Of a DNA stretch of 64,000 nt, positions 33,553-42,241 are shown in pieces. The position numbers were made by a program, and so were the translations under genes. The stretch is from NCBI GenBank assembly GCA_024707225.1, contig JANQAE010000002.1, positions 434,001 through 498,000 on the forward strand, in the 5' to 3' direction. The stretch's first letter is position 1. Every line of letters starts with the position of its first letter. Origin of the DNA: Dokdonella sp. Lineage in GTDB: Bacteria; Pseudomonadota; Gammaproteobacteria; Xanthomonadales; Rhodanobacteraceae. A model generated the notes under the pieces. That model saw only the letters and a list, made by a program, of their open reading frames with translations. It did no database searches and was not told the DNA's origin.

Positions 33553-36500
33553 TCAGCCGCCCGACGTCGGAGCCATGTCCGATCGCGCGCGGCGCGCGGC
33601 ACGCCTGGCCTCGCGCAGGGCGCGCTTCTCGGCGCGGCGCTGCTTGCGCCGCGCGGCCATCCGCGCGAAGACCAGGTAGATCGCCGGCGTCGACAGCAGC
33701 GTCAGCGTCTGCGAGACCAGCAGGCCGCCGATCATCGCGATGCCGAGCGGCTGGCGCAGCTCCGAGCCGACGCCGAAGCCGATCGCCAGCGGCACCGCGC
33801 CGAGGATCGCGACCATCGAGGTCATCATGATCGGCCGGAAGCGCACCAGGCAGGCCTCGCGGATCGCCTCGATCGGCGGCAGTCCGAGGTCGCGCTCGGC
33901 GTGCAGCGCGAAGTCGATCATCATGATCGCGTTCTTCTTGACGATGCCGATTAGCAGCACGATCGCGATGATCGAGATCAGCGTCAGCTCGGTGTTGGTC
34001 GCCAGCATCGCGAGCAGGCAGCCGACGCCGGCCGAGGGCAGGGTGGAGAGAATCGTCACCGGATGGATCAGGCTCTCGTAGAGCATGCCGAGCACCAGAT
34101 AGACCGCGAGCACCGCCGCGATCAGCAGCAGGCCCTGGCTCGACTGCTGCTGCTGGAAGCGGCGCAGCTCGCCGCCGAACTCGCCCTGGATGCTGCCGGG
34201 CATGCGCAGATTGCGCATCGTCTGCTGGATCAGCGGGATCACCTGGCCCATCGTCACGCCCTCGGCCATGTTGAACGTGAGGTCGAGCACCGGGAACTGG
34301 AAATCGTGCTGGATCATCAGCGGCGCGCGGCTCGGCTCGATCCGCGTGACCGCGTCGAGCGGCACCATCGCGCCGCTGTTGGATCGCACGTAGAGGCGCT
34401 TGAGCGTGTCGACGCCCGGCGATTCGCCGGTGATCGCGTTGAGCACGACGCGGTACTGGTTGAGGTCCGAGTAGATCGTCGAGATCTGGCGCTGGCCGAA
34501 CGCGTTGTACAGCACGCTGGAGATCGCGCCGATCGACACGCCCAGGCGCGAGGCGGTGTCGCGGTCGATGACCAGGTTCTGCTCGATGCCGCCGTCGTCG
34601 AGCGAGGTGCCGACGCTGGTCAGCTGCGGCAGCTTCTTCATCTCGGCGGCCAGGCGCGGTCCCCACTCGAGCAGTTCGGCGTAGTTGCTGCCCTTGATCG
34701 AATAGCTGAACTGCGAGTCGCCGCCGCGCGGACCGCCGCCGCCGCCGCCCAGATCCTGCACCGGACGCAGGCGCAGCTCGACGCCGGGCAGGTTCTCGGT
34801 CTTGCGGATCAGCCGGTCCATGACCTGGAACGTCGATTCCTCGCGGCCCTTGCCGAGCGGCTTGAGATTGATGAAGAACTGGCCGCGGTTGGCGCTCGCG
34901 CCGGGACCGCCGCCGCCGCCGACCGACGAGCCGACGCTGGCGACCGCCGGATCGGCCATCAGGATGCCGGCCACCTTGCGCTGCAGCTCGACCATCGCCT
35001 CGTAGGAGACCGATGCGCTGGCCACCGCGGTGCCGTTCATCATGCCGGTGTCCTGCTGCGGGACCATGCCGAACTTCAGGAACGTCGACAGCCAGATCGT
35101 GACGATCACCAGCAGCAGCGGCTGCAGGCTCATCAGCCGCGGATGGCGCAGCGACCAGTCCAGCGCGCGCCGATAGCCCGACAGCATGCCGGCGTGCATC
35201 GCGTCGATCGCCCGGCCCAGGCGCGAAGGCGTCTCGACGCCGCCGTGCGGCTGCAGGTAGCGCCCGCACAAGGCCGCCGTCAGCGTCAGCGAGACCAGGG
35301 CCGACATCGCGATCGCCGCGGTGATCGTGACCGCGAAGGAATGCAGGAACATGCCGATGAAGCCGCCCATGAACAGCAGCGGCACGAACACCGCGATCAG
35401 CGAGGCGGTGATCGACACGATCGTGAAGCCGATCTCTTTGGCGCCGTCGAGCGCGGCCTGCAGGCGCGACTTGCCCATGTCGAGGTGGCGCACGATGTTC
35501 TCGATCACGACGATCGCGTCGTCGACGACGAAGCCGATCGAGATCACCAGCGCCATCAGCGTCAGGTTGTCGAGCGTGAAGCCGAGCGCGTACATCACGA
35601 TGAACGCGCCGGCCAGCGACAGCGGTACCGAGAGTCCGGCGATCACGGTCGGCGCGATGCGGCGCAGGAACAGCAGCATCGTCATGATGACCAGGGCCAG
35701 GCTGATCAGCAGCGTGATCTGCACTTCCATGACCGAGGCGCGGATCGTCGCGGTGCGGTCGTTGAACGGCGTCAGCTCCACCCCCTCGGGCAGCCAGCTG
35801 CGCATCAGCGGCAGCTCGTCGTAGATGTGGTCGACGGTCTGGATGACGTTGGCGTCGGCCTGCTTGCTGATGACCATCAGGATCGCGCGCTGGCCGTTGA
35901 ACCAGGCCGCCTGATTCTTGTTCTCCTGGCCGTCGCCGACGGTGGCGATGTCGCGCAGCCGGATCGGCACGCCGTTGCGCACGGCCACGACGATGTCGGC
36001 GAACTGCGCGCCGGTGGTCAGCGCGTCGTTCGCGGCGATCGTCATCATCGTGTGGCCGTCGCTGAGGAAGCCCTGCGGCGAGGTCACGTTGGCCGCGGCG
36101 ATGGCGTTGCGGACCTGATCGGCCGACAGGCCCATCGAGGTCAGCTTGCGCAGGTCCACGTCGACGCGCACGGCCGGCGTCGCGCCGCCGGTGATGTTGA
36201 CGTCGGCGACGCCGGGCACCTGGCGCACGCGCTGCGCCAGCAGCGAGTCGGCCATGTTGTACAGGTCCGCGGTCGTGCGCGTCTTGGAGGTCAGCGCCAG
36301 CAGCAGCACCGGATCGTTGTTCGGATTGGCCTTGCGGTAGACCGGCGCGGTACGCAGCCCGGACGGCAGGTCGGCCATCGAGGCGTTGATCGCGGCCTGC
36401 ACGTCGCGCGCGGCCGCGTCGATGTTCTTGTCGAACGTGAAGAACAGGATCACCACGGCCGAGCCCTGGCGGCTGGTCGAGCTCATCTGGTCGACGCCGG

Positions 36501-36723
36501 AGACGCGGCCCATGTGGCGTTCCAGCGGCGCGGCGACGGTCGAGGCCATGTTCTCGGCATCGGCACCGGGCTGGTTGGCGACGACGAAGATCACCGGAAA
36601 CTCGACGTTCGGCAGCGCGGCGACGCCGAGCTGGAAGTAGGCGATCAGGCCGCCGACCATGACGCCGAGGGCGAGCAGGATCGTGCCGATGGGGCGTTTG
36701 ATGAAGGGGGCGGCGATGTTCAC
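33553..36723 (-). CDS. mdtC: RND efflux pump inner-membrane subunit, MdtC-like
   Basis: A 1,056-residue HAE1-family permease starting at GTG (MNIAAPFIKRPIGTILLALG). It shows the proton-relay helix 4 motif VISIGFVVDDAIVVIENIVR with paired aspartates, the second-half helix motif IVLLIGIVKKNAIMMIDFAL, and periplasmic porter loops (AAPLERHMGRVSGVDQMSS). The C-terminal tail is strongly basic (RKQRRAEKRALREARRAARR). With mdtA and mdtB upstream it forms an MdtABC/MuxABC-type tripartite pump in which two different RND subunits form a mixed trimer. The outer-membrane component is not in view. The first 1 kb upstream is the repeat array, and no Shine-Dalgarno is visible before the GTG. Confidence 0.93.
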   Translation of the reverse strand: MNIAAPFIKRPIGTILLALGVMVGGLIAYFQLGVAALPNVEFPVIFVVANQPGADAENMASTVAAPLERHMGRVSGVDQMSSTSRQGSAVVILFFTFDKNIDAAARDVQAAINASMADLPSGLRTAPVYRKANPNNDPVLLLALTSKTRTTADLYNMADSLLAQRVRQVPGVADVNITGGATPAVRVDVDLRKLTSMGLSADQVRNAIAAANVTSPQGFLSDGHTMMTIAANDALTTGAQFADIVVAVRNGVPIRLRDIATVGDGQENKNQAAWFNGQRAILMVISKQADANVIQTVDHIYDELPLMRSWLPEGVELTPFNDRTATIRASVMEVQITLLISLALVIMTMLLFLRRIAPTVIAGLSVPLSLAGAFIVMYALGFTLDNLTLMALVISIGFVVDDAIVVIENIVRHLDMGKSRLQAALDGAKEIGFTIVSITASLIAVFVPLLFMGGFIGMFLHSFAVTITAAIAMSALVSLTLTAALCGRYLQPHGGVETPSRLGRAIDAMHAGMLSGYRRALDWSLRHPRLMSLQPLLLVIVTIWLSTFLKFGMVPQQDTGMMNGTAVASASVSYEAMVELQRKVAGILMADPAVASVGSSVGGGGGPGASANRGQFFINLKPLGKGREESTFQVMDRLIRKTENLPGVELRLRPVQDLGGGGGGPRGGDSQFSYSIKGSNYAELLEWGPRLAAEMKKLPQLTSVGTSLDDGGIEQNLVIDRDTASRLGVSIGAISSVLYNAFGQRQISTIYSDLNQYRVVLNAITGESPGVDTLKRLYVRSNSGAMVPLDAVTRIEPSRAPLMIQHDFQFPVLDLTFNMAEGVTMGQVIPLIQQTMRNLRMPGSIQGEFGGELRRFQQQQSSQGLLLIAAVLAVYLVLGMLYESLIHPVTILSTLPSAGVGCLLAMLATNTELTLISIIAIVLLIGIVKKNAIMMIDFALHAERDLGLPPIEAIREACLVRFRPIMMTSMVAILGAVPLAIGFGVGSELRQPLGIAMIGGLLVSQTLTLLSTPAIYLVFARMAARRKQRRAEKRALREARRAARRARSDMAPTSGG

Positions 36724-36841
36724 GGGGAGGATCCGGTGTTCCGCTCTTCGTCGCGCGGGGTGCGCGCCGATCGCGGGCGGTTGTCGCTGAGGTGTGTTGC
36801 GGACGAGGAGGGGATTACGCCGTAGGCGGTCGGGGCCCCAG

Positions 36842-37045
36842 TTTTTCTCCGCTGGCCTCTACGCGAGTGGATCGATGGGTTCATGCCCGATCCGAAGAGT
36901 TCTACTTCGTCGGTGGACGTTGTCCCGCCTTGTTCCGCCCGCTTCCAGCCGAGTGGACCGCCTATGTCCGCCAACGATCTGCTGGGTTTCACCACATAGG
37001 TGAGCGGCATCCCTGCCTTATTCCGCTCGCCTCCAGGCGAGCGGG
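36842..37045. repeat. Three degenerate tandem units of about 87 bp
   Basis: The core TTCCGCyCGCyTCCAgsCGAGyGG recurs with CGAGTGG/CGAGCGG at 36864, 36950 and 37038, spaced 86 and 88 bases. Each of the first two units ends with a GTGG/GGTG-n-CCC-GCC block. The third unit is the outermost hairpin of the left inverted copy. Confidence 0.7.
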
Positions 37046-37272
37046 TCACTTCTCTTTGCGTGCCCAAAGAGAAGTAACCAAGAGAAAAGGGCACCCCGGT
37101 ACCGCGGTCTCCGGGCATCCTGCCCTGCGACTGCGCGAAGGCGCTCCGGGGTCCGCTGACGGCGCCTCCTGCGCCGACAGCGGACTGGGCCACGTCCTGT
37201 GGCCCACCCTTCGGGCTGTTCCTCCGCACCTTCGCCGCGCACAGGGGCCCCGTTGGCGCGCATCCTGCGCGC
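37006..37272 (-). repeat. Left copy of inverted hairpin element (GGA loops on the minus strand)
   Basis: Read on the minus strand, five hairpins show GGA in the loop. They are GCGCGCA/TGCGCGC (37272-37256, loop GGA), GGGCCAC/GTGGCCC (37205-37187, loop AGGAC), GGCGC/GCGCC (37175-37161, loop AGGAG, inside a larger GTCCGCTG stem), GGGCA/TGCCC (37125-37113, loop GGA) and CCGCTCGCC/GGCGAGCGG (37044-37023, loop TGGA). An 11-bp A/T-richer hairpin (ACTTCTCTTTG with its complement, 37048-37075) sits between the last two. It mirrors 37408-37675. Confidence 0.85.
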
Positions 37273-37407
37273 TCGAGCGGAAAGCGGGGGCAAGAGCGAG
37301 ACGCGGAAACGAGGAGCGAGCTCGCGCGCATGTGTGAATGCAAGCGCCCGGGCGCGAGCCACGCCGCGTCGCCTTTGGCTGCTGCTGTTGCTGTTGCTTC
37401 GTCTTCT

Positions 37408-37675
37408 GCGCGCAGGATGCGCGCTGATGGGTCCCGTGAGACGCGGTGGGCCGGCGCCGGATCAGCCCGGAGGGGCGCGGGCAGGGAGGCCCGCGCGTTC
37501 GTCGTCAGCACAGGAGGTGCTGTCGACGAACCCCGGCGCCGGTCCACGCACCCGCAGGGCAGGATGCCCGGAGGGCGCGTCTCGGGGGTGCCCTTCTCTT
37601 TGGTTACTTTCTCTTGGGCACGCAAGAGAAAGTGACCCGCTCGCCTGGAGGCGAGCGGAAAAAGGCAGGGATGCC
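37408..37675 (+). repeat. Right copy of inverted hairpin element (GGA loops on the plus strand)
   Basis: Inverted counterpart of 37006-37272. The hairpins are 37408-37424 (loop GGA), 37475-37496 (stem GCGCGGGC, loop AGGGAG), 37506-37522 (stem CAGCAC, loop AGGAG, extended by GTCG/CGAC), 37557-37569 (loop GGA), 37606-37633 (11-bp stem ACTTTCTCTTG) and 37637-37658 (stem CCGCTCGCC, loop TGGA). The last ~120 bases match the left copy almost exactly. The inner hairpins are conserved in form but not in sequence. Confidence 0.85.
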
Positions 37676-37738
37676 GTCCACCGACGAAGCAAAGCCCAGC
37701 CGATCGCTCGCGAACGAAAGCTATGGCACGCCCCGCGC

Positions 37739-40700
37739 TCACGCCGCGCGCGCCCGCGCCAGCTCACGCCGCTCGCGGCGCGCCTTGAGCCAGTCCGATA
37801 CCCGTTCCATGTACAGGTACAGCACCGGCGTCGTGTACAGCGTGATCAGCTGCGAGAGCAGCAGACCGCCGACGATCGACACGCCCAGCGGTCGGCGCAG
37901 TTCCGAGCCGATGCCGGTGCCGAGCGCCAGCGGCAGCGCGCCGAACAGCGCGGCGGCGGTCGTCATCAGGATCGGCCGGAAGCGCAGCAGGGCGGCGCGG
38001 CGGATCGCGGCGTGCGCGTCGGCGCCGGCGCGCTGCGCGTCGATCGCGAAGTCGATCATCATGATCGCGTTCTTCTTGACGATGCCGATCAGCAGGATGA
38101 TGCCGACGATGCCGTCGATCGACAGGCTGAAGCCGCACAGCGTCAGCGCGAGCAGCGCGCCGACGCCGGCCGGCGGCAGCGTCGAGATGATCGTGATCGG
38201 ATGGATGTAGCTCTCGTAGAGCACGCCGAGCACGATGTAGATCACGATCAGCGAAGCCAGGATCAGCAGCACCTCGTCGGTCATCGACGCGGAGAACTCG
38301 GCGGCCTTGCCGATGAAGTTGCCGCGCACCTGCGGCGGCATCTGGATCGAGGTCTCCACCTCCTCGATCGCACGCACCGCCTGCGACAGCGAATGGCCGG
38401 GCGCGAGGTTGAACGAGATCGTCACCGCCGGCAGCTGGTTCTGGTGGCTGATCACCAGCGGCGCGTTGACGACCTTGGCGTCGACCAGCGAGGCCATCGG
38501 GATCGTGCCGCCGGAACCGAGCGCGATGCCGGTGTTGCCCTGCGCGCCGATGCCGCTCGGCGTCGCCGAGTTGCTCGAGGTGACCTGGCCGAGCGTGGTC
38601 GCATTGGAGCCGATCAGCGCGCCGCTGCCGCTGCCGCGCACGCCGAGCCGGTTCAGCAGGTCGGCGCTGGTGCGGAACTTCGGGTCGACCTCGAGCACGA
38701 CGCGGTACTGGTTGAGCTGCGTGAAGATCGTCGAGATCTGGCGCTGGCCGAACGCCGAATACAGCGTGTCGTCGATGGTCTGGATCGGCACGCCGAGCCG
38801 GCTGGTCTGGTCGCGGTCGATCGTCAGCTGCAGCTGCAGGCCGGCCGCGGCGAGGTTGTTGTCGACGTCGGCGAGCTCGGGACGCGCCTGCAGCGCCGTG
38901 GTCATCTTCTCGGCGAACGCGTGCAGCTCCTCGGCGTTGACGTCGGTGAGCGCGTACTGGTACTCGGTCGGCGCGATGCGGTTGTCGAGCGCGATGTCCT
39001 GGACCGGCTTGAGGTACAGCGCGACGCCGGGAATCGCGTCGACCGCGTCCTGCAGGCGCGGCAGGATCTCGGTCAGGCCGCCGCGCTCGGCACGCGGCTT
39101 GAGCACGATGCTGAGCTGGCCCTGGTTGAGCGTGGGATTGATCGAGCCGGCGCCGATGAACGCGGCCACGCCGCTGACGGCCGGGTCGGCGCGCAGCGTC
39201 TCGGCGACGCGCTGGGTGCGCTCGAGCATCGCCGGGAACGCGATCGACTCGTCGGCCTGCACCACGCCGGTGATCATGCCGGTGTCCTGATCGGGCAGCA
39301 GGCCCTTGGGCATCGTCACGAACAGCAGCACGGTCAGTGCGACCGTCGCGGTCAGCACCAGCATCGTCAGCGGCTGATGCGCGAACACCCAGTCCAGACT
39401 GCGCGCGTAGCCGTTGACGAGGCGGTCCCACCAGCTGCGCCTGCGGCCGGCGCGCGGCGCGTGGTCGCCCTCGGCCTCTTCCTTCGGTGCGTTCTCGCGC
39501 CGCAGCAGGTACGCGCACATCATCGGCGTCAGCGTCAGCGAGACCAGCATCGACAGCGCGACCGCGATCGACAGCACGACTGCGAACTCCTTGAACAGGC
39601 GTCCGGTCACGCCCGGCATCAGCAGCAGCGGCAGGAACACCGCGATCAGCGAGACCGTCAGCGACAGCACGGTGAAGCCGATCTCGCGGGCGCCTTCCTC
39701 GGCGGCTTCCTTCGGCTCGCGGCCTTTCTCGAGGTAGCGCACGATGTTCTCGATCATCACGATCGCGTCGTCGACGACGAAGCCGGTCGCGACCGTCAGC
39801 GCCATCAGCGACAGGTTGTCGAGCGAGAAGCTCGCGAACGCCATGACCGCGAACGTGCCCATGATCGACAGCGGCACCGCCACGCTCGGGATCACGGTCG
39901 CCCACAGGCGGCGCAGGAACACGAAGATGACCGCGATGACGAGGCAGATCGTCAGCATCAGCGTGAACTCGACGTCCTCGACCGACGCGCGGATCGTCAC
40001 CGTGCGGTCGGCGAACACGTCCAGATGCACGTTGGCCGGCAGCACCGCGCGCAGCTCCGGCAGCATCGCCTTGATCGCGTCGACGGTCTGCACGATGTTC
40101 GCGCCCGGCTGGCGGCGGATGTCGAGCAGCACGGCCGGCTTGCCGTTGGCCCAGGCCGCGAGCTGGTCGTTCTCGACGCCGTCGACGACGTTGGCGACGT
40201 CGCCCAGCCGCACCGGCGCCTCGCCGCGGTAGCTGATGATGACGCGACGGTATTCGTCGGCGTCGGAGATCTGGTCGTTGGCGCCGATCGTGAACGACTG
40301 CGCCGCGCCGTCGATCGTGCCCTTGGGACCGTTGACGTTGGCCTGGGTCAGCGCCGAGCGCACGTCCTCGATCGTCAGTCCCTGGTTGGCCAGCGCGGCC
40401 GGATCGACCTGGATGCGCACGGCCGGCCGCACGTTGCCGGCGATGCTGACCAGGCCCACGCCGGCGACCTGCGACAGCTTCTGCGCGAGGATCGAGTCGG
40501 CGTAGTTGTTGACCTCGCGCAACGGCAGCGCGTCGGAGCTCATGACCAGGGTCAGGATCGGCGCATCGGCCGGATTGACCTTGTTGTAGACCGGCGGGTA
40601 CGGCAGGTTGTTGGGCAGGGTACCGCGGGCGGCGTTGATCGCCGACTGCACGTCCTGCGCGGCCGCGTCGATGTCGCGGCTCATGTTGAACGTCAGCAGG

Positions 40701-40972
40701 ATCGTCGAGAGGCCCGCCGAGGAATCGGAGGTCATCATCGACAGGCCGGAGATCTGGCCGAACTGGCGCTCCAGCGGCGTCGTCACCAGGGCCGCCATCG
40801 TCGTCGGGCTGGCGCCCGGATACTGGGTGGTGACCTGGATCGACGGCGCATCGATGTCGGGCAGGGCCGAGACCGGCAGCTGGCGATAGCCGATGAAGCC
40901 GAGCAGCAGCAGGCCCGCCATCAGCAGCGAGGTGGCGACCGGTCGTCGTATGAACAGGGTGGAGAAGCCCAC
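37739..40972 (-). CDS. mdtB: RND efflux pump inner-membrane subunit, MdtB-like
   Basis: A 1,077-residue permease. The start is taken as GTG at 40972 (MGFSTLFIRRPVATSLLMAG), the usual MdtB beginning. Helix 4 carries VATGFVVDDAIVMIENIVRY with two acidic residues for proton relay, and the second half has IILLIGIVKKNAIMMIDFAI. It has a long basic insertion between the helical halves (APRAGRRRSWWDRLVN). It pairs with MdtC. The reading frame is continuous with mdtA upstream, so the sequence as given encodes one 1,500-residue MdtA-MdtB polypeptide, probably through a base error near 41060. Confidence 0.92.
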   Translation of the reverse strand: MGFSTLFIRRPVATSLLMAGLLLLGFIGYRQLPVSALPDIDAPSIQVTTQYPGASPTTMAALVTTPLERQFGQISGLSMMTSDSSAGLSTILLTFNMSRDIDAAAQDVQSAINAARGTLPNNLPYPPVYNKVNPADAPILTLVMSSDALPLREVNNYADSILAQKLSQVAGVGLVSIAGNVRPAVRIQVDPAALANQGLTIEDVRSALTQANVNGPKGTIDGAAQSFTIGANDQISDADEYRRVIISYRGEAPVRLGDVANVVDGVENDQLAAWANGKPAVLLDIRRQPGANIVQTVDAIKAMLPELRAVLPANVHLDVFADRTVTIRASVEDVEFTLMLTICLVIAVIFVFLRRLWATVIPSVAVPLSIMGTFAVMAFASFSLDNLSLMALTVATGFVVDDAIVMIENIVRYLEKGREPKEAAEEGAREIGFTVLSLTVSLIAVFLPLLLMPGVTGRLFKEFAVVLSIAVALSMLVSLTLTPMMCAYLLRRENAPKEEAEGDHAPRAGRRRSWWDRLVNGYARSLDWVFAHQPLTMLVLTATVALTVLLFVTMPKGLLPDQDTGMITGVVQADESIAFPAMLERTQRVAETLRADPAVSGVAAFIGAGSINPTLNQGQLSIVLKPRAERGGLTEILPRLQDAVDAIPGVALYLKPVQDIALDNRIAPTEYQYALTDVNAEELHAFAEKMTTALQARPELADVDNNLAAAGLQLQLTIDRDQTSRLGVPIQTIDDTLYSAFGQRQISTIFTQLNQYRVVLEVDPKFRTSADLLNRLGVRGSGSGALIGSNATTLGQVTSSNSATPSGIGAQGNTGIALGSGGTIPMASLVDAKVVNAPLVISHQNQLPAVTISFNLAPGHSLSQAVRAIEEVETSIQMPPQVRGNFIGKAAEFSASMTDEVLLILASLIVIYIVLGVLYESYIHPITIISTLPPAGVGALLALTLCGFSLSIDGIVGIILLIGIVKKNAIMMIDFAIDAQRAGADAHAAIRRAALLRFRPILMTTAAALFGALPLALGTGIGSELRRPLGVSIVGGLLLSQLITLYTTPVLYLYMERVSDWLKARRERRELARARAA

Positions 40973-40997
40973 GGCGTGGAAGGTCCTGGCGGCGCCG

Positions 40998-41013
40998 CGC
41001 CCGTGCACGGGCG
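40998..41013. repeat. 16-bp palindrome in the mdtA-mdtB junction
   Basis: CGCCCGTG followed by CACGGGCG. It lies between the presumed mdtA stop and the mdtB start, in sequence that looks intergenic when compared with the protein family. Confidence 0.5.
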
Positions 41014-41055
41014 GCGGCTGGGATGGAATGGGGAAGGGGAGGGCGGTCGGGCGCC

Positions 41056-42241
41056 TCAGCCGCCGCGCGCGCCGCGGCGCCTTGTCGCCGTCGGCCGGCG
41101 GCGCCGCCGGCGGTGCCACTTCGCCCGGTGCCAGCGGCTTGACCTTGCTGCCGACCTTGAGCCGGAACTGGCCTTCGGTCACCACGCGGTCGCCGAGCGC
41201 GAGCCCTTCGTCGATCAGTATCAGGCCGCCGTCGACCGGGCCGGCGGTCTTGACCGGCTGCATCTTGACGGTGTCGTCGCCCTGCACGATCCAGGCGTAC
41301 TCGCCCTGCGGTCCCTGCTGCACGCCGGTGGCCGGCACGACGATGCCGTCCTTCACGGTCCGCACCTGCAGGCGCACGTTGACGAACTCGCCCGGCCAGA
41401 GCCGGCCATCGGCATTCGGGAACTCGGACTTGAGCTTGAACGTGGCGGTCGAGGTGTCGATCGTGTTGTCGATCACCACCAGCTCGCCCTCGGCGATCGG
41501 GGTGGCGTCGTTGCGCGACAGCGCGAGCACCTTGAGCGGGGTCGCGTCGGCCTCGCGGACCCTGGCCATGTCCTGCTGCGGCAGGTTGAACATCACGTTG
41601 ACCGGCTGGGTCTGGGTCAGCACGACGATCGCCGTCGCATTGGCCTGCACCAGGTTGCCGACGTCGACCTGGCGGATGCCGGCCAGGCCGTCGATCGGCG
41701 CGGTGATGCGGGTAAAGCCGAGCTGGGTACGCGCGCTCGAGATCGCCGCCTCGTCGGATGCGACCTGCGCCTCCTGCTGGCGCACGGTCTGGCGCTGGTT
41801 CTCGAGATCCTGCGCCGACACGAACTTCTGTCCGCTGAGCTCGTCGTAGCGCTTGAGCGTGCTGCGCGAGGCCGCCAGCTGGGCCTCGTGCTGCTTGCGC
41901 AGGCCGATCGCCTGGTCGAGCGCCGCTTGGTAGGTGCGCGGATCGATCTCGGCGATCAGGTCGCCCTTCTTGACGGCCTGGCCCTCGCGGAAATGCAGCG
42001 CGGTCAGCTGGCCGCCGACCTGGGCGCTGATCGTCACCGTGTTGAGCGCCTGCACGGTGCCCAGCGCGGTCAGGAACAGCGGCACGTCCTGGGCGACCGC
42101 GGCGACGGCCGTGACCGGGATCGGGCCTTCGTCGCGGTTCTGCCCTTCGCGCGGGTTCTTCGGCGACCCGACGATGCGCCAGGCGACGGCCGCGACGAGG
42201 AGAACCGCCACGACGGTGATGATGAGCTTGCTGCGGGACAT
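41056..42241 (-). CDS. mdtA: RND efflux periplasmic adaptor, MdtA-like
   Basis: An adaptor protein starting at MSRSKLIITVVAVLLVAAVA (membrane anchor/signal). The family pattern follows: TVTISAQVGGQLTALHFREG (lipoyl half), a coiled-coil hairpin around KQHEAQLAASRSTLKRYDEL, FTRITAPIDGLAGIRQVDVG, then the beta-barrel and membrane-proximal parts to about residue 385. It links the permeases to an outer-membrane channel. In the given frame there is no stop before mdtB. A TGA at 41056-41058 lies one base out of frame just after DGDKAP, so the likely true end is there and one extra base sits in the GC run at 41059-41075. AGGA precedes the ATG. First gene of the pump operon. Confidence 0.88.

Follow-up and report, generated by a model that had tools for sequence, protein, structure and literature searches.

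The 670-bp stretch at positions 37006-37675 of the Dokdonella sp. DNA analysed here (64,000 nucleotides, hereafter the window) is a copy of a dispersed two-armed repeat. Read outward, each arm would give an RNA that probably binds CsrA/RsmA through two adjacent GGA-loop hairpins, P2 and P3, and that probably has a triple-helix pseudoknot as its 3' closure. This interpretation is drawn from comparisons of sequence and predicted structure among the copies and from their link with csrA.

The element at the mdt junction

The inverted pair occupies a 1-kb gap, and the flanking genes are both on the minus strand. The features of the locus and of the two arms are as follows.

33553..36723, minus: RND pump gene (Pfam ACR_tran) downstream of the element, named mdtC-like in the sequence-only reading
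37006..37272, minus (its own direction and also the strand of the mdt genes): left arm, type A
37006..37017, minus: left P7 hairpin, loop AGGGAT
37023..37044, minus: left P6 hairpin, loop TGGA, adjoining the triplex domain on its 3' side
37044..37094, minus: left putative triplex/pseudoknot domain, with GTGCCC, pyrimidine strand Py1, GGTTAC, stem S2 and a loop complementary to GTGCCC
37113..37125, minus: left P5 hairpin, loop AGGAT
37151..37185, minus: left P3 hairpin, loop AGGAG, conserved GGA core
37186..37206, minus: left P2 hairpin, loop AGGAC, conserved GGA core
37256..37272, minus: left P0 hairpin, loop AGGAT
37273..37407: centre separating the arms, 135 bp, in which no sigma-70-like promoter is found
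37408..37675, plus (its own direction): right arm, type C
37408..37424, plus: right P0 hairpin, loop AGGAT
37475..37496, plus: right P2 hairpin, loop AGGGAG, conserved GGA core
37497..37531, plus: right P3 hairpin, loop AGGAG, conserved GGA core
37557..37569, plus: right P5 hairpin, loop AGGAT
37588..37637, plus: right putative triplex/pseudoknot domain, parts in the same order as on the left
37637..37658, plus: right P6 hairpin, loop TGGA
37664..37675, plus: right P7 hairpin, loop AGGGAT
37739..42241, minus: ORF with HlyD-type and RND domains (Pfam HlyD_D23, ACR_tran), on the mdtB side, upstream of the element

The sequence-only reading had described two copies of ~270 bp facing each other around a 135-bp centre. 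The copies and the centre are present, but the arms point outward in the GGA-displaying direction, which places the left arm on the operon strand. Read in their own directions, the two arms are 78% identical across 273 aligned positions. Each arm carries six GGA loops (P0, P2, P3, P5, P6 and P7) rather than the five first counted, and the A/T-richer 11-bp hairpin of that reading sits at the heart of a more extensive triplex/pseudoknot signature, which it had not described. Compared with dinucleotide shuffles, the folding energy has a z score of -7.0 for the left arm and -8.9 for the right arm; for the whole element, in which one long stem is possible, it is -29.9 (20 shuffles).

A 340-aa open frame on the minus strand (36720-37742) spans the whole element; it has no Pfam match and is regarded as a non-gene, which could nevertheless be mis-annotated as a gene. 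On the mdtB side, a single 1500-aa open frame (37739-42241, minus) joins an HlyD-type membrane-fusion domain to an RND pump domain and may represent a fusion of mdtA with mdtB, or two genes sharing one frame. An RND pump gene (L032, 3811-6501, minus) also adjoins a second element cluster.

Copies and layout across genomes

A genome search followed by inspection of the clusters reveals 42 matches in nine clusters in the source genome. Eight of the nine hold both arm types, A on one side and C on the other, which are marked in the P3 stem by GTCCGC or GTCTGC (A) and GTTCGTC (C). Some clusters contain two A arms, one (L039) is a single C arm only, and extra modules repeating P6 and P7 are found outside the arms of the clusters. 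In a search of relatives under strict filters, 20 of 40 genomes, the source genome counted, contain a match. With rough E-values, model R1 matches 26 of 299 genomes of the phylum, and the sequence-structure model R2 matches 95 of 369 genomes of the class, about a quarter. The genomes with the element carry 62 family labels within one class; among the matches listed for one exact pattern are Dyella, Xanthomonas, Lysobacter, Luteimonas, Pseudoxanthomonas, Stenotrophomonas, Frateuria, Halopseudomonas and others. The earlier suggestion that similar stretches recur in related genomes is borne out by the nine clusters and by the further copies sought and found in these searches.

The 62 distinct pairs of neighbouring motifs (at most 700 bp apart) comprise 45 that point outward, 12 inward and 5 in the same direction. 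The inward, tail-to-tail arms (93-182 bp apart) are L178, L194, L195, L224, L230, L234 and L252 (Xanthomonas), L179 and L212 (Luteimonas), L200 (Stenotrophomonas), and L061 and L090 (G035); at L178 and L234, low-complexity stretches resembling the usual centre sit outside the inward arms. In 44 of the 45 outward dyads the two arms have unlike triplex strands or loops; a shuffle test of this inequality within genomes is weak (fraction 0.079, 14 dyads). The element is present at the mdt junction of G000, G001, G005, G006, G007 and G008, whereas the junction is empty in G009 and G004 (G002 and G003 were left out), the flanks of the empty sites being too diverged to fix the ends of the element.

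Several single loci show further variations. At the mdt junction of G005 (L172) types A and C have exchanged sides compared with the window, as would be expected after an inversion or a fresh insertion of the element. Three wide dyads have central ORFs without a Pfam match (L139, 2373-3158, 261 aa; L141, 2285-2590, 101 aa; L140, 2409-2864, 151 aa), and such a dyad may carry passenger genes. An insert of ~60 bp with extra hairpins lies inside the triplex hairpin loop at L034 (3040-3110), L037 (3960-4030) and L038 (3800-3880 and 4180-4250). At L101 (G050), AAAGTGCGGT, the Haemophilus-type uptake signal, adjoins the element and suggests that the element is present in a Pasteurellaceae genome.

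The copies resemble REP/BIME elements and MITEs in being intergenic, repeated, palindromic and arranged as inverted pairs. They differ in their branched fold, GGA core, triplex signature and arms of ~270 nt, a length that does not fit the short, RAYT-associated palindromes of REP/BIME. A non-autonomous mobile element of MITE- or BIME-like type, in which the arms are structured ends for an unseen transposase and conservation serves transposition, would account for the nine clusters with near-identical arms in one genome, for the ORFs in the centres of the three wide dyads, and for the filled and empty mdt junctions among congeners, as is usual for MITEs. Strand-specific G-U wobble, the GGA loops and the link between GGA and csrA (all described below) would be unexpected for DNA ends; moreover, viral contigs contain no match to one exact pattern, and one dyad used as a query matched no phages and gave two short, weak plasmid matches. 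We regard this explanation as unlikely; mobility and an RNA role are compatible.

Predicted RNA structure, the GGA core and the link with csrA

A structural alignment of 35 arms from 14 genomes (17 arms from the source genome and 18 from 13 others) yields a consensus of 75 pairs, 56 of which show a double change that keeps the pair. With the pseudoknot included, 97.7% of 2736 cells are paired and 59 of 79 pairs have changed on both sides. None of 500 shuffles reaches the observed covariation, a control that is inflated by relatedness, and slid versions of the structure pair 36-48% of cells, a control that keeps relatedness yet is biased towards a structure inferred from these very arms. Selection for structure, which had been suspected from the two copies in the window, is supported by these covarying stems. 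The 72 pairs that both strands are predicted to form include 33 G-U cells and 8 A-C cells, an imbalance which suggests that the outward strand is the RNA.

The GGA loops are not equally conserved. In the P3 loop, every position of C A (N) G G A N G other than the two N has zero entropy, and GGA is present in P3 in 35 of 35 arms and in P2 in 34 of 35. Among the 18 arms from other genomes, GGA occurs in P2 in 17, P3 in 18, P0 in 9, P5 in 10 and P6 in 5. The conserved core is the pair of adjacent GGA hairpins, P2 and P3; the series of five loops first described for the left copy does lie on the operon strand, but it is a local enrichment around this core.

The A/T-richer hairpin has the order GTGnnC, Py1, GGTTAC, Py2, loop, Pu and GTGACC. 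Py1 is the mirror of Py2 and would therefore run parallel to Pu, matching it by Hoogsteen rules, and the loop is complementary to bases just upstream. Both the mirror and the loop pairing recur in new patterns in unrelated genomes. For the mirror, 201 matches were reduced to 150 aligned, 141 full-length and finally 122 with a 7-bp stem and a pyrimidine run; the mirror is perfect in 102 of these 122, which were not selected for it (500 shuffles: mean 40.8, maximum 57), and in 51 of 68 matches outside model building (shuffle maximum 34). The 42 asymmetric patterns fit a mirror in 33 cases and a direct repeat in 2. Pairing of at least 4 bases between the loop and the upstream bases is found in 55 of 66 motifs that were selected by the mirror and not by loop pairing (shuffles: mean 16.8, maximum 26).

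Two features expected of a triple-helix pseudoknot, a parallel third strand and loop-upstream pairing, are both found with matching changes, and the domain beside the GGA hairpins is likely to be such a pseudoknot. In the predicted fold one pseudoknot stem is spanned by two loop bases, which may be too tight for all pairs to form at once. In triple-helix pseudoknots of the telomerase RNA type, a pyrimidine strand runs parallel to the purine strand of the neighbouring stem. The predicted domain shares this arrangement and differs in origin and setting, and in that its fold is predicted from covariation only.

A DNA-level structure acting on the chromosome, a cruciform or H-DNA, is very improbable. 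Mirror pyrimidine tracts and long inverted repeats can form such structures; here, however, the mirror was scored across only ~7 bp, the wobble and the GGA loops are asymmetric between the strands, and the unlikeness of the arms in nearly every outward dyad would weaken a cruciform.

The reading of the loops as CsrA/RsmA sites can be compared with the distribution of csrA. By PF02599, csrA is found in 89 and not found in 37 of 126 element-positive genomes. A CsrA-type hairpin was defined as a C-A[N]GGAN-G loop on a stem of at least 5 pairs, and 196 of 210 full-length matches served as test arms after short and duplicate arms were dropped. Among csrA-positive genomes, 83 of 137 arms and 47 of 78 genomes have such a hairpin on the outward strand, compared with 3 of 137 arms on the opposite strand and 0.6 expected in shuffled arms; the other 31 of the 78 genomes have none in the arms seen. 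Where no csrA hit was obtained and completeness is 90% or more, 1 of 53 arms and 1 of 29 genomes (1 of 31 with added loci) carry one, the exception being G449, whose draft assembly has 470 contigs. The less complete genomes that lack a hit have hairpins in 3 of 5 cases, and in 4 of 5 once left-out loci are added. The loci added later are from G722 and G377 (no csrA, no site), G343 (csrA, no site), G487 (87% complete, no csrA hit, one site) and G687, which is too short to judge. Fisher's p for 47 of 78 versus 1 of 29 genomes is 3e-8, which overstates the contrast because 25 of the 29 csrA-negative genomes belong to one family (the others to f31, f36, f232 and f196), and the link is confounded by descent for the same reason. 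With this limit, the link with csrA backs the initial recognition of the loops as being of the CsrA/RsmA form.

Arms without a GGA site reveal a second head, TGTYTGAGC...GCGAGTT, which is present in 35 of 108 such arms and in 0 of 88 arms with a site. It was seen in G243, G254, G597, G050, G147, G352, G356, G493, G558 and G617. Its internal loop has GA on each strand (tandem G-A) and is presumably kink-turn-like.

Known relatives, transcription and significance

No Rfam family, the CsrB, RsmX, RsmY, RsmZ and RsmW families included, has a match in the window at its cut-off. TwoAYGGAY (RF01731) gives no match over the element even at E<=10 and stays below the family score in the window. In G092, however, it exceeds the gathering cut-off on the outward strand at L091 and L092 (2 of 15 loci scanned), and the match at L091 covers model positions 45-113, within the head domain only. 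Across 185 genomes of the class the family is found in 12 at E<=1e-3 and in 10 over the cut-off, often with many matches each. In 12 of 20 TwoAYGGAY loci the triplex motif lies directly 3' on the same strand; the other eight loci are from G355, G401, G046, G417 and G382. The element shares with TwoAYGGAY two adjacent GGA-loop hairpins joined by AG and a multi-copy occurrence, and the Rfam clan of TwoAYGGAY includes RsmW; in contrast to a TwoAYGGAY match, it adds the putative triplex domain and a two-armed layout. TwoAYGGAY appears in a table of Weinberg et al. 2010 (PMC2864571). PMC4333381 predicts that CsrA binds TwoAYGGAY and also Bacillaceae-1 read in reverse, so that a role for CsrA at a head of the TwoAYGGAY type has already been proposed in print.

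Bacillaceae-1 (RF01690), on the reverse of the type A outward strand, scores 30.6 bits in the window (cut-off 35) and 39.8 bits at L032. This reverse-strand match fits the CsrA-site reading published in PMC4333381. The match is short and the model has only 67 positions; it may reflect the likeness of two GGA hairpins, not descent. An RsmZ SL2 construct (PMC12047976) has the same CA[N]GGANG loop form as P3. Like the CsrB, RsmX, RsmY, RsmZ and RsmW decoys, the element displays several GGA loops on hairpins of one strand; unlike them, it forms dispersed inverted pairs, has the predicted triplex-pseudoknot and lacks a recognised promoter. RsmU of Xanthomonas campestris, from the same bacterial order as the source of the window, is described in PMC7694677 as an RsmA-binding RNA from a 3' UTR. 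Its membership is not supported: no triplex motif flanks eight comEA-type (HHH_3) loci in four Xanthomonas genomes, the RsmU locus of strain 8004 not being among them.

No description of the whole element was recognised in the literature searched by sequence and topic, judged mostly from titles and abstract openings, with subscription papers outside the search. The triplex-pseudoknot, the unequal arms and the csrA link are new here with respect to that literature, the P. fluorescens repeat families (PMC2718517) lying outside the sequence comparison. Tentatively, the copies may constitute a new class of repeat, a two-armed RNA platform with a triplex-pseudoknot and exchangeable heads, in which the GGA head would serve CsrA/RsmA in cells that have it, the other head a different partner elsewhere, and TwoAYGGAY would be one such head.

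No sigma-70-like promoter is found in the region, and the promoters of this group may differ from the sigma-70 consensus. The gene context could be used for 31 of the 45 outward dyads (11 at contig edges, 2 in predicted ORFs and 1 too far away were excluded). Dyads lie between convergent genes in 12 of 31, co-directional genes in 17 and divergent genes in 2, compared with 30, 92 and 43 of 165 other gaps (convergent excess, p 0.016; divergent deficit, p 0.018). This preference would suit a two-way transcript end or mRNA stabiliser, in which RNA polymerase or 3' exonucleases would be halted by the hairpins and the triplex, the GGA loops being incidental, as would the 3 terminator-like sites versus 0.8 expected. 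These sites, however, lie inside the arms and not at their ends, the element is positioned inside the mdt operon, and the constant GGA loops and their absence where csrA is absent are left unexplained, which makes this explanation quite unlikely.

The pairing of the arms into one long stem, as first proposed, is predicted for read-through RNA, but its consequences vary. In seven dyads of the source genome, the predicted read-through giant stem leaves P2/P3 displayed in 14 of 14 native transcripts and in 0 of 14 when the arms are made identical (the loose P3 pattern of this count also re-counted P0 as 'not'); P2/P3 would stay displayed in these dyads because the two arms differ there. In the predicted read-through RNA of 56 dyads from other loci, one of which (L085) is another copy of the source genome, 77 sites are local and 105 of 182 are absorbed. 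Unequal arms as a general device for displaying P2/P3 were rejected on this count, and display is not claimed as the reason for the inequality, since elsewhere the rule is not general.

In the proposed mechanism, the arms would be transcribed by read-through from neighbours, as in the mdt operon, or from unrecognised promoters. P2 and P3 together may hold one RsmA dimer, and the triplex/P6 end may shield the RNA from 3' exonucleases. Each copy would add to the pool of RsmA-binding RNA and locally mark its host mRNA. In the case of mdtC, the simplest prediction is that RsmA bound to the leader would alter the stability or translation of the downstream part of the operon mRNA.

If this is true, the element would be a widespread and overlooked platform for gene control, and many genomes would contain several to dozens of unannotated CsrA/RsmA landing pads, which would determine how much of a global regulator is free and would bring that regulator next to particular genes. 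The orphan TwoAYGGAY RNA would gain a larger home and a ligand test, and a natural bacterial triple-helix pseudoknot with three-strand covariation would be added to those known. A class of intergenic repeats would thereby become a testable family of structured RNAs, for which the occurrence of one scaffold in genomes with and without csrA would provide a ready natural experiment.
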